DNA of 64,000 bases. Source: Sulfurovaceae bacterium (lineage in GTDB: Bacteria > Campylobacterota > Campylobacteria > Campylobacterales > Sulfurovaceae). This document shows, one piece after another, positions 6,274 to 32,463 of the stretch (positions are counted from its first letter, which is position 1; each line of letters starts with the position of its first letter). Made by a program: the position numbers and the translations under genes. Where the stretch lies: contig JAQTLE010000005.1 of the NCBI GenBank assembly GCA_028715055.1, positions 1-64,000 on the forward strand, written 5' to 3'. The notes beneath the pieces were generated by a model, which saw only the letters and a list, made by a program, of their open reading frames with translations, did no database searches and was not told the origin of the DNA.

Positions 6274-7593
6274 ATGAGCGATCAAAAAAAACCCAATCAT
6301 AACAATCGTAAAAACAGAACACATGTACCGGTAGAAGGTTACAAAGTAGAAGAATTACAACAAAAACCATTAACACAACTACTCGAAATCGCAGAAGAGA
6401 TGAAGGTTGAAAATCCACACGAGCTGCCTAGAAGAGATCTTATATTTGAAATACTTAAATCACAAGTCAGTCAAGGCGGATATATATTATTCACCGGTAT
6501 CTTGGAGCTCATGAGCGATGGTTACGGCTTTTTGCGTTCTGTAGATAGTAACTTTGCAAATTCTAGCAATGATACATATGTGAGCAGCACACAAATAAAG
6601 TTATTTTCACTTCGTAGCGGTGACGTGGTTACCGGTCAAGTGCGTCCGCCAAAAGATCAAGAAAAATACTATGCACTTCTTAAAATTGAAGCTATCAACT
6701 ATTTATCGCCTGAAATATCAAAACAACGGCCGCTATTTGACAACCTTACGCCATTATATGCATGTGAACAACTTAAGCTTGAATATAATCCAATGAAACT
6801 TACAGGACGAGTATTGGATCTATTTACTCCGATAGGAAAAGGTCAAAGAGCCTTAATAGTAGCTCCTCCTCGCACCGGTAAAACAGAACTTCTTAAAGAG
6901 CTTGCTCATGGAATTACTTATAATAATCCGGATGCTTCACTAATGGTTCTGCTCGTTGATGAGAGACCAGAAGAGGTTACAGATATGCAGCGTTCGGTAA
7001 AAGGAGAAGTATATAGCTCTACTTTTGACTTGCCTGCTCAAAATCATGTTAGAACGGCTGAAATGGTTATAGAAAAAGCTAAAAGACGTGTTGAGCTTGG
7101 CAGAGATGTTATTATATTGCTCGATTCCATTACAAGACTAGCCAGAGCCTACAATACAGTCACTCCAAGTTCGGGTAAAGTACTTTCCGGCGGTGTAGAT
7201 GCGAATGCATTACATAAACCAAAAAGATTTTTTGGAGCAGCTAGAAACATAGAAGAGGGCGGAAGCTTGACAATTATAGCAACTGCACTTATAGAAACCG
7301 GCAGCAGAATGGATGAGGTAATATTTGAAGAGTTTAAAGGTACAGGAAACTCGGAAGTAATCCTTAGCCGTTATATTGCTGATCGTCGTATATATCCTGC
7401 CATTGATGTTATCAAATCAGGAACAAGAAAAGAAGAACTTTTATTAAGTCCGGATAAATTGCAAAAAGTATGGGCTATTAGAAATGCCATGCAGAGCATG
7501 GAAGAGGTCGAAGGACTTAAATTCCTATTCTCTAAAATGCTTAAGACCAAAAATAATGAAGAATTCCTGTCTATAATGAACGACGGTGCGTAG
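6274..7593 (+). CDS. rho: Transcription termination factor Rho
   Basis: Hexameric RNA-dependent ATPase that ends transcription of untranslated RNA. The N-terminal helical domain is followed by the cold-shock-like RNA-binding domain (GYGFLRS). The ATPase core has the Walker [12 protein letters not shown] and the Walker B region [13 protein letters not shown]; the Q/R-loop region is also recognisable. An upstream in-frame ATG at 6256 would add six residues, but AAGAGGA sits just before the ATG at 6274, so 6274 (439 aa, starting MSDQKK) is preferred. murI follows after 7 nt, so the two are probably cotranscribed. Confidence 0.97.
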
Positions 7594-29238: not shown

Positions 29239-29258
29239 TACTCTGACTATTTCGAGCT

Positions 29259-30977
29259 TCAGCCTTTTTGGCTTGCAAGCTCTTCTAAAATATTATTAGT
29301 TATAACTTTTACATCTTCGTTTATATCCGCATCTATTTTTTCTATTGTTTCTTCATCTGTGATAACTATATCAAACGTGCCATTTTGCAATGCATCCAAT
29401 AACACTTCAGGATCATTTGTTATCGTAGTCGTATATCCCATGTTTTGTGCCATTTTTTCTACTATTTTATTTTCCAGATCAATAGTTTTAGCTATCAAAA
29501 CATTACCTATTGATTTGTTAGAATCATTATGTGTTTCATTTTCTAAAGAGGCAGGATGGGTATCATTTGTAGCCATATATTTGGATAATATTGCTTTTAT
29601 ATCAGAAAGGCTAACAGGCTTGAGAAGAATATCTTGATCATTAAAACCTAATTGTAGTAATTTATCTGTATTTGTCGGTTGGCTTATTGGAATAAGTTTT
29701 GTTTTGTCGGTTTTTGTCAAGGCTTCAATGATTTCCGGTTCAGCTTTATCGATATCTATCAAGCAAAATTTGCATTTATTTTTTTCTCTTAAAGAATCTA
29801 GCTTATTGATCGATTGGAATGTTTTTACTTTTGTGCCGAAAAATTTGAGATATTTTTCTATGTAATTATTTAGCTTGGAAGGAATATCATCACTTTCATA
29901 AAGACCTATCATCATACCAGAATAAGCATCTTCCAGGCTGGAATTTTCTATTGTTATTTCCTCTATAGGAAATGTGAGATAAAAAGTTGTGCCAATATCT
30001 TTTGAGCTTTCAACTTCTAGATCGCCACCCATGCTGCGCGCGAGTTTATTAGAAGTTACAAGTCCAAAGCCCTTAGCTGTTTCCACTGTATCTAGAGGGA
30101 TGTCTTTAGAAAAAGATTCAAAAATAAGTTCTTGTTGTTCTTGTGTCATGCCGACACCATTGTCTTGAACTTTTATCAAAAGTGTACTTGTAACGACATT
30201 TTCGTGAAACTCTTCATTTATTTTGTTGAGCTCAACATTTATTTCGCCATCAGGATTTGTAAATTCGATAGCATTGCTAAGTAGATTTATCATGATTTCT
30301 TTGATTTTATCTAGATCACCATTTAGTTTAGGGCTGATCCTTGGATCTATATAAAAATTGAAATTTATATTTTTATCACTTGCGTTTGCCGCAAATATTT
30401 TCAAAATGCTTTCAAATTCTTCAAATGAATCAAATACAATATTTTCTAAATTTATTTTATTGCTTTGTGTTTCCGGTATTTGAAGTATATTATCTATAAT
30501 TGCAAGAATATTTTCAGAGCTTTTTTCAATAATCAAAATAAATTCTTGTTGCTCTTCATCTATATCGCTATTTTTCATAAGCTCTGAAAATCCGATTATT
30601 ATGTCTAAATATGTTCCAATTTCTGTAACCATAGATTTATTTTTTTGGTAAGAATCTATAATATTTTCTAGTTTAGCATAAGCTTGACTTCGGCCTTCAT
30701 ATGTATCTAGTTTTAAAGCAGAAATATCATTTTCCCCATTAAATAGTTTAACCAGTTCTGTAGTATTTTTTGTTTCTTGATTTGACGTTATATATCCATA
30801 TATTAATAATAACAAACCAAAGAAAATCACACTTCCATAAATAGCAATTGTTATCAATTGATTTTGGTTGTTTGCATCAAAATTCATGGTTATATTCCAT
30901 AACGGATAGCCGGCTAAACCGATCATTATCAAAATTGGCAATAAACTTATGAGGTTTAATCTATTTATTATGCTCAT
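29259..30977 (-). CDS. Histidine-kinase-like membrane protein lacking the phospho-accepting His, with two receiver-like domains
   Basis: A 572-residue protein with two transmembrane segments (about 10-27 and 41-62) and a short external loop. The dimerisation helix keeps the usual tail (IIGFSELM at 127-134, SSENILAIIDNIL at 153-165) but the H-box, normally SHEIRTPLN, reads VTEIGTYLD: Thr118 replaces His. The ATPase domain looks intact, with the N-box NLLSNAIEFT at 231-240, DNGVGM at 272-277 and KGFGL at 302-306. A receiver-like domain follows (about 355-467; Asp408 or Asp410, Lys453), then a second, shorter one (about 491-565) with Asp541 but without the acidic pair. It follows a gene for degenerate HPt domains by 11 nt. 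Autophosphorylation on His is therefore unlikely; a pseudokinase or scaffold role is inferred. Confidence 0.85.
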   Translation of the reverse strand: MSIINRLNLISLLPILIMIGLAGYPLWNITMNFDANNQNQLITIAIYGSVIFFGLLLLIYGYITSNQETKNTTELVKLFNGENDISALKLDTYEGRSQAYAKLENIIDSYQKNKSMVTEIGTYLDIIIGFSELMKNSDIDEEQQEFILIIEKSSENILAIIDNILQIPETQSNKINLENIVFDSFEEFESILKIFAANASDKNINFNFYIDPRISPKLNGDLDKIKEIMINLLSNAIEFTNPDGEINVELNKINEEFHENVVTSTLLIKVQDNGVGMTQEQQELIFESFSKDIPLDTVETAKGFGLVTSNKLARSMGGDLEVESSKDIGTTFYLTFPIEEITIENSSLEDAYSGMMIGLYESDDIPSKLNNYIEKYLKFFGTKVKTFQSINKLDSLREKNKCKFCLIDIDKAEPEIIEALTKTDKTKLIPISQPTNTDKLLQLGFNDQDILLKPVSLSDIKAILSKYMATNDTHPASLENETHNDSNKSIGNVLIAKTIDLENKIVEKMAQNMGYTTTITNDPEVLLDALQNGTFDIVITDEETIEKIDADINEDVKVITNNILEELASQKG

Positions 30978-30988
30978 GATATTTCCTT

Positions 30989-32323
30989 TTATGCATTTTT
31001 TATAAGATTTTCAAAAGACAGGAACTGAGCCCAATATTTCTTGAAAAGCGGCTCTACTTTCTCAATCTCTTCATTAGAGTGCAGCTCATAAAGCGACATG
31101 GCAAGAGGGGTAATATACAAATTGTTAGCGACTCTTTTGAGTAAACGAGCAATTTTTTTTGCTGTTTCAATATCACCTTTTTTATACGAATCCAATAGAT
31201 TACCGGTTTCTGTGTGACATTGTTCTATAAAATCTTTTATAAAATCTTTTACTATATCATCTGGAAGAGACAATTTTTTTGCCGCCTCATCAAGCGTAAA
31301 ATCAAATTCTACAGGGGTAACACCGGATAGGTCTATAAATAAAGCAGATTTTAGTTTCGGATTTTCATTTTCGGTTGCTTCGTCTCTTTTTTCAGACTCA
31401 TTTTGGTCAATTGCGCTTTGTTTAGAGTCAATGTTTTCCAAAGTAATTTCTGATATTTCATTATTTGATGAAAATTGATCTATCGCGTTGTAAAAATTAT
31501 CGATATTTTCTTGATTTGCATCGGATTTTAATAATGCAACAAGATTTGAAATATCTTCTGGCAAATAAAGTACATCTGACAAGTGCATCAAAAAGTTAAT
31601 AGCAGATTTTTTTGTTTCTTCATCCTGACCTTCTAGATCATTTTTGAGAGATTTTGCCGTTTGTAAATATTCTTGTAAAAATGAAATATAATCGGTTTTT
31701 GACAGTCCGATTTTCTGACTTATCGCTTCAATATCTATTTTTGATACTTTTGGGTCATTATTTGTTGCGATGTTGGTTTCTTGATGTATATTATCTTGCT
31801 CGATATTGTTGGGGTTGTTTATTTCAGATTCATGTAGTGCTTGTGTCTCGGTGTGGGCAGTTTGTTCTTGATCTATGTTTTGAGGAATATCAGATATTTC
31901 TCTGGTTTCATGAAATATAATTTCTTCCAAAATAAAATCATCAAAATCATTGAAATCATCTTTTAAGTCTTTATTCTTCTGTGTATGGATAGGTTTATTA
32001 TTTTTTAATGGATTTTCTTTTTGTTTACTGATAGTTTCGTTAATAATATTTTGATCGGTTTTTATTTCATTTTTTATAAGTTCTGGCAAAATCTCTATAA
32101 TTTTGCTTTGAGACAACAAACCGTTAACATCAAAGCTTTTTATTGGGTAAATTTGCACATCTCCTAAATTGCCAATGATGATCTCTTCTTTTTCGAAAGC
32201 AATATCTATATCCCCGATACTAATTTTCCGGTAAAGTTCCATGATATTATCTAGTTTTAATAATGAGAAAAACTCTTGATCAGCAGCTATTATGTCTTTA
32301 TTTTGATTGATGATGCAATACAT
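30989..32323 (-). CDS. Protein with two HPt-like domains lacking the conserved His
   Basis: A 444-residue cytoplasmic protein. The ATG at 32323 is preferred over an upstream TTG (32383) because AAGGAG lies 9 nt before it. Residues 1-85 resemble a small PAS-like sensor. Residues 90-195 are an acidic, Asn/Gln-rich, low-complexity linker. Two helical regions look like HPt phosphotransfer domains: about 200-285 and about 340-435. In the second, the helix that normally reads AHxLKGxAxNLG is ARLLKRVANNLY, with Arg393 in place of His; in the first, Asn243 occupies that place. It is cotranscribed with the kinase-like gene, which has also lost its His. Assignment as HPt-derived is by eye and needs structural confirmation. 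Confidence 0.65.
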   Translation of the reverse strand: MYCIINQNKDIIAADQEFFSLLKLDNIMELYRKISIGDIDIAFEKEEIIIGNLGDVQIYPIKSFDVNGLLSQSKIIEILPELIKNEIKTDQNIINETISKQKENPLKNNKPIHTQKNKDLKDDFNDFDDFILEEIIFHETREISDIPQNIDQEQTAHTETQALHESEINNPNNIEQDNIHQETNIATNNDPKVSKIDIEAISQKIGLSKTDYISFLQEYLQTAKSLKNDLEGQDEETKKSAINFLMHLSDVLYLPEDISNLVALLKSDANQENIDNFYNAIDQFSSNNEISEITLENIDSKQSAIDQNESEKRDEATENENPKLKSALFIDLSGVTPVEFDFTLDEAAKKLSLPDDIVKDFIKDFIEQCHTETGNLLDSYKKGDIETAKKIARLLKRVANNLYITPLAMSLYELHSNEEIEKVEPLFKKYWAQFLSFENLIKNA

Positions 32324-32463
32324 GATCCTAAACTCCTTGTTAGTCTTATCTTTTAGGAAGTACGATGTTACTATATTTTGCAAAACGATGGATATAACGA
32401 TACTATAATAAAGTTAAAAAAAACAATGAATACATGATAAATTAATACAATAAGACATAAGTT

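Follow-up and report, generated by a model that had tools for sequence, protein, structure and literature searches.

The locus and its relatives

The question raised by this locus is whether two neighboring genes that resemble the parts of a phosphorelay can still have a function after the histidines that carry the phosphate have been replaced. The genes were found in the window, a stretch of 64,000 nucleotides of a Sulfurovaceae bacterium (contig JAQTLE010000005.1). Both are on the minus strand, at the positions given in a preliminary description of this DNA: HPT, the former HPt protein of 444 aa, at 30989-32323, and KIN, the former hybrid histidine kinase of 572 aa, at 29259-30977. They are separated by 11 bp and flanked by uvrC and lon. 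In the relatives, the order is nadB, followed by orf147-uvrC-HPT-KIN-RR and then lon-bamD-proC, where RR, immediately after KIN, encodes a single-domain receiver of about 121 aa. RR is missing from the four members of one clade. The locus of the relatives reads as a complete phosphorelay, comprising an NIT-sensing hybrid kinase, a PAS-HPt protein and a single-domain response regulator. The full relay is conserved throughout the Sulfurovaceae, and it is also present in G026 and G038, two more distantly related genomes from the same order. HPT and KIN of the window are the remnant of this phosphorelay between uvrC and lon.

The four genomes with the stripped form are the window genome (G000), G005 (UBA5622), G006 (UBA7648) and G007 (ZodW 273). 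They belong to one genus and were monophyletic on Lon with a support of 100/98. The stripped form is known from these four genomes only, of which three are metagenome assemblies, one of them 74% complete. The sister clade that retains the histidines (His+; G001, G003, G009 and G010) was used for comparison, and genome-wide statements are based on searches of the genomes. No homologues were found in the viral contigs searched, and the papers searched for the locus in Sulfurovum gave no description of it.

Domain architecture of KIN

The ancestral form of KIN has about 1050-1140 aa and contains, in order, an NIT sensor, HisKA with ANMSHEIRTPLNG, the ATPase and a canonical receiver (MDIQMP) that is flanked by a pseudo-receiver on either side. 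In the window, KIN is preceded by the Shine-Dalgarno-like AAAGGA and begins with two hydrophobic helices (residues ~3-31 and 39-65; 30783-30971), recognized by hydropathy and alignment. The NIT sensor between these helices is absent from both the stripped clade and the His+ sister clade; Pfam NIT was matched in the relatives L084 and L107 and had no match in L073 or the window. The sister clade lacks NIT yet keeps every phosphate site and RR, which places the loss of the sensor earlier. The DHp remnant (residues 93-171; 30465-30701) carries a 15-residue deletion immediately ahead of the H-box. The H-box MVTEIGTYLD aligns to MSHEIRTPLN with Thr118 (codon ACA, 30624-30626) exactly opposite the phosphoacceptor His, as had been proposed, and HisKA scored below the Pfam cut-off (25.9 vs. 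26.9 bits).

The HATPase_c domain (residues 171-342; 29952-30467) was recognized by Pfam with an E-value of 2.4e-22. N235 of the N box and D272 and G276 of the G1 box are retained. The lid/G2 motif TRKFGGTGLGL has become VETAKGFGL, leaving GFGL as an altered G2 box, so that the intact ATPase boxes claimed earlier are intact for N and G1 and not for G2. Among the sister genomes of the clade, G006 has lost the G2 box, and G007 retains half of it and has Ser in place of a G1 Gly. The KIN of G006 (L072:8425-10014) carries an in-frame deletion of the whole DHp domain together with the G2 box; what is left is the membrane helices, fused to part of the ATPase, and the two pseudo-receivers.

Pseudo-receiver 1 (residues 354-468; 29574-29918) was delimited by alignment and predicted structure. 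Asp408, Asp410, Lys453 and Pro454 are invariant in all 38 aligned sequences, and the Response_reg profile did not recognize the domain in the window. The next segment is a junction (residues 469-490; 29508-29573) at which the alignment shows that the canonical receiver was excised. The motif of this receiver is present in 68/68 complete orthologues outside the clade and in none of the four members. Pseudo-receiver 3 (residues 491-572; 29262-29507) shares 41-44% identity with the C-terminal domain of the His+ sister kinases. The receiver-like domains first described are the two ancestral pseudo-receivers; the canonical receiver with its phosphoacceptor Asp is gone.

AlphaFold2 with 38 aligned sequences predicted a pair of membrane helices and a DHp-like hairpin, followed by an ATPase fold of the kinase type and by two domains folded like receivers. 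The best structural match of this model was ShkA, and GacS, RetS, HK853 and DivL were also matched. With a predicted kinase fold and lost kinase functions, KIN would be classed as a pseudo-histidine kinase. It is evolving faster than its neighbor genes and its His+ relatives: KIN shows 61% identity where Lon shows 91%, while His+ pairs with Lon at 91-92% show 81%.

Domain architecture of HPT

HPT starts at the ATG at 32323, with AAGGAG upstream, and the orthologues share this start. A TTG at 32383 was rejected as the start, being a mere extension of the open reading frame. The protein consists of a PAS-like domain, a linker and two helical bundles. The PAS-like domain (residues 1-80; 32084-32323) was predicted as an alpha/beta fold with high pLDDT, and PAS structures were among its fold matches. 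AlphaFold2 with 43 aligned sequences also gave confident helical bundles at about residues 195-290 and 344-443. The fold matches included HPt domains (Shewanella, HptB, BarA and ArcB) and PAS, with weak E-values for a query that is a three-domain protein. This agrees with the two HPt-like helical domains that had been described. Scanned by itself against sequence families, the window HPT gave no credible match.

The N-terminal bundle (HPt1; residues 195-290; 31454-31741) contains Asn243 (31595-31597), which had been taken for the site of a lost His. The corresponding column has no His in any of 43 Sulfurovaceae orthologues and holds N, K, G, S, E, A, D, T or Q. Asn243 was therefore rejected as a His lost in this clade, since the domain is His-less family-wide. 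The distant genome G038 reads SHKLKG at this column.

The C-terminal HPt domain (HPt2; residues 340-444; 30992-31306) was assigned from the Pfam matches of its orthologues and from its predicted four-helix fold. Pfam Hpt matched 42 of the 43 aligned orthologues and left the window HPT unmatched. At the position of the phosphorylated His, the alignment places Arg393 (codon CGT, 31145-31147), in line with the preliminary description. The codons of this site are CGT/CGC in the clade vs. CAT/CAC outside it. The combination of His and the xLKG motif of HPt domains is replaced by RLLKR in the window and RLLKG in the sister genomes. The alignment of orthologues, proposed earlier as a check, thus gave a mixed answer: Arg393 is conserved in the clade, Thr118 varies within it, and the Asn243 column is variable throughout the family.

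Loss of the phosphate sites and of the response regulator

The kinase His position is occupied by Thr in the window, Pro in G005 and Tyr in G007, and is deleted with the whole DHp domain in G006. ANMSHEIR is the sequence of each of the 72 complete H-boxes found outside the clade. The locus L104 was considered as one without an H-box and rejected, because its bases are masked and the His is readable; it is the 73rd H-box outside the clade. At the C-terminal HPt site, Arg is found in 4/4 clade members and His in 76/76 readable sites outside. Every phosphotransfer site is gone in this clade. Since each His-Asp transfer step is missing, the sequence implies that the pair is unable to relay phosphate by known chemistry.

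The response regulator gene lies behind KIN in 65 of the 68 complete kinase loci outside the clade. The few relatives without a recognizable RR gene are G012, L105, L125 and L142. In the window, a 20-bp gap between KIN and lon (29239-29258) is the site at which the sister genomes carry it, as judged by locus comparison. Searches for an RR orthologue elsewhere in the four clade genomes found none and matched only regulators of 217-255 aa. No Pfam Hpt domain was found anywhere in these four genomes, and 89 of 94 genomes of the family contain at least one. Relocation of the RR or HPt function to another place in the genome was therefore rejected.

In general, about 0.9% of HisKA domains and 0.9% of Hpt domains lack the His (PMC12632262), so that each loss alone is of a known kind. 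Both histidines are absent from 4/4 clade members, and all readable outsiders have both. The double loss exceeds chance, as the preliminary description had argued. The losses are linked, because they co-occur in one clade together with the loss of the receiver and of the RR gene.

Selection on the remaining pair

In codon models, the omega of the stripped clade was 0.167 for KIN and 0.183 for HPT, values that are approximate because the dS of the clade is 0.7-1.8. An omega of 1 was rejected with 2dlnL of 394 and 304, respectively. A neutral simulation, with the third-position divergence applied at all positions, predicted 15-22 stops per gene, and none was observed. The genes do not look like pseudogenes, since their frames are open in four genomes and the omega values are near 0.17 and 0.18. 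Both genes are under purifying selection.

The constraint differs among the domains. Compared with the His+ sister clade, dN/dS was raised in DHp with G006 left out (0.25 vs. 0.04, p = 7e-4), the ATPase (0.18 vs. 0.03, p = 1.5e-19), pseudo-receiver 1 (0.18 vs. 0.08, p = 2e-4) and HPt2 (0.12 vs. 0.06, p = 0.005); these p values are uncorrected for eleven tests and take the sister-clade value as known. No relaxation was detected in the membrane region, pseudo-receiver 3, the PAS-like domain and HPt1 (p = 0.14-0.77). The PAS-like domain had a dN/dS of 0.12 vs. 0.17 in the sister clade. Constraint has been kept in the anchoring and possibly binding parts and loosened in the catalytic parts, which points to a function by binding.

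A proposed function without phosphate and its alternatives

The ancestral relay has shed the kinase His, the receiver domain, the HPt His and the RR gene in one clade. With the losses linked and both genes still selected, a non-phosphorelay complex, one of the readings in the preliminary description, is the best reading. The remaining pair is still under selection, and we consider it fairly probable that it acts without His-Asp phosphotransfer as a membrane-anchored complex. KIN and HPT would bind each other stoichiometrically. The membrane anchor, the ATPase shell and two pseudo-receivers would come from KIN, and the PAS-like input and two helical bundles from HPT; the bundles may dock on the pseudo-receivers as HPt domains do on receivers. 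Such a complex would operate through binding and allostery, and the preservation of both proteins suggests that they now work without phosphorylation. There is a precedent in DivL, which has a kinase fold in use although it shows no kinase or phosphatase activity, and which senses through binding (PMC4211667). A broader proposal is that a whole phosphorelay was converted in this one clade into a phosphate-free signaling complex, in which a pseudo-kinase and a pseudo-HPt keep their docking surfaces and signal purely by binding. We put this forward tentatively, as a realistic possibility.

The acceleration of KIN and the DHp deletion of G006, as in a decaying gene, speak against a complex, as does the restriction of the stripped form to four genomes. 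The acceleration and the deletion are also what slow decay would produce, in which the relay became useless in the clade and both genes are heading for loss. The low dN/dS would then be partly inherited from the time of the working relay, or would come from avoiding toxic misfolding. The different H-box replacement in each genome and the relaxed constraint of DHp and ATPase fit decay as well. However, with a dS of 0.7-1.8 the measured divergence is that within the clade, and there are still no stops in four genomes. The membrane helices, PAS-like domain, HPt1 and pseudo-receiver 3 are constrained as in a working relay, and Shine-Dalgarno-like sequences are kept for both genes in the window. 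Slow decay is the main rival of the complex, and we regard it as unlikely with an appreciable chance of being right.

An ATP-sensing pseudokinase, in which KIN binds ATP and shifts its conformation while phosphorylating nothing, is favored by the HATPase_c match and the retained N235, D272 and G276. This earlier suggestion was weakened because the ATPase constraint is relaxed 3-6 fold and the G2 box of G006 is lost, to which the lost lid motif of the window and the G1 and G2 changes of G007 can be added. Conserved ATP sensing in the clade is unlikely, and as an account of the pair it seems improbable. Pseudo-receiver 1 might instead be a new working site whose state is read by HPT: Asp408 and Lys453 would either accept phosphate supplied by a non-cognate kinase or a small donor or, as happens in ShkA, bind a ligand. 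The invariant residues of this domain and the acidic YEDD/YEDE motif in G005, G006 and G007 are in its favor, as is the match to ShkA, whose pseudo-receiver binds c-di-GMP (PMC7010744). However, the window reads YESDD at this motif, Response_reg is not recognized there, and the constraint on the domain is relaxed too. c-di-GMP is unlikely as the ligand, since no GGDEF protein was found in G000. We think this site highly improbable. As for the proposed shift of phosphorylation to other residues such as Thr118, the residue sits exactly at the His position. The suggestion is unsupported, since the three sister genomes have Pro, Tyr or a deletion there, and no downstream acceptor is left; it is hardly credible.

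Comparison with known systems

The closest systems are the relays of the Sulfurovaceae themselves, with NIT (L084 and L107) or without it (L073 and L074), which have the same locus and order and orthologous proteins, and share all domains except those deleted in the window clade. They keep the kinase His, the receiver Asp, the HPt His and mostly the RR gene, and the window clade keeps none of these. DivL, a pseudo-histidine kinase of Caulobacter, resembles KIN in its retained kinase fold, replaced phosphoacceptor His and degenerate ATP use, and was a structural match. However, DivL acts on a living relay (DivK and CckA), whereas the window no longer has a relay and its HPt partner has degenerated as well. 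The comparison with DivL covers the kinase fold. RetS and GacS of Pseudomonas aeruginosa were among the best matches of KIN. RetS targets another kinase by blocking GacS autophosphorylation (PMC4866733). RetS belongs to a working relay, whereas searches of the window genome turned up no further hybrid kinase with HPt. ShkA of Caulobacter shares the DHp-CA-pseudo-receiver arrangement, but it is catalytically active, has a functional second receiver and is controlled by c-di-GMP (PMC7010744). In the window these features are lost, and no GGDEF protein was found in its genome.

Examples of pseudo-kinases, of pseudo-receivers and of HPt domains lacking His are known singly, and their roles are mostly open (PMC12632262). 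In the literature covered, which is incomplete, we found no description of a loss in both partners together with the receiver and RR, with intact relatives at the same locus showing the order of events. The locus offers a natural series from a full relay, through a relay without its sensor, to one without any phosphate site. Along this series, one can measure how constraint was released in the catalytic parts while it continued elsewhere, and the roles of relay proteins beyond phosphate transfer become directly testable.

Other variants in the family

Several minor observations were made. With the YEDD/YEDE motif beside the invariant Asp and Lys, pseudo-receiver 1 of L070, L071 and L072 is nearer to a true receiver than that of the His+ clade. 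GGDEF had no match in the window genome or the His+ sister clade, and c-di-GMP signaling is seemingly absent from most of the genus. Two genomes without a Pfam Hpt match, G043 and G048, were considered as parallel cases and rejected. G048 retains a kinase of about 1080 aa. G043 (genus g2) has no match to a full kinase but weak ones across ATPase and receiver stretches, and has apparently lost the whole system. In G012 (L035, lon-KIN gap at about 7046-7093), RR is lost, and the kinase His, receiver and HPt His are retained. This is an independent partial loss, perhaps a first step on the same path. Finally, the KIN of L137, L138, L141, L142, L145, L146 and L149 has about 800 aa and a short membrane region at its start. 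This group retains the kinase His, the receiver motif and the HPt His, and has apparently lost the NIT sensor independently.
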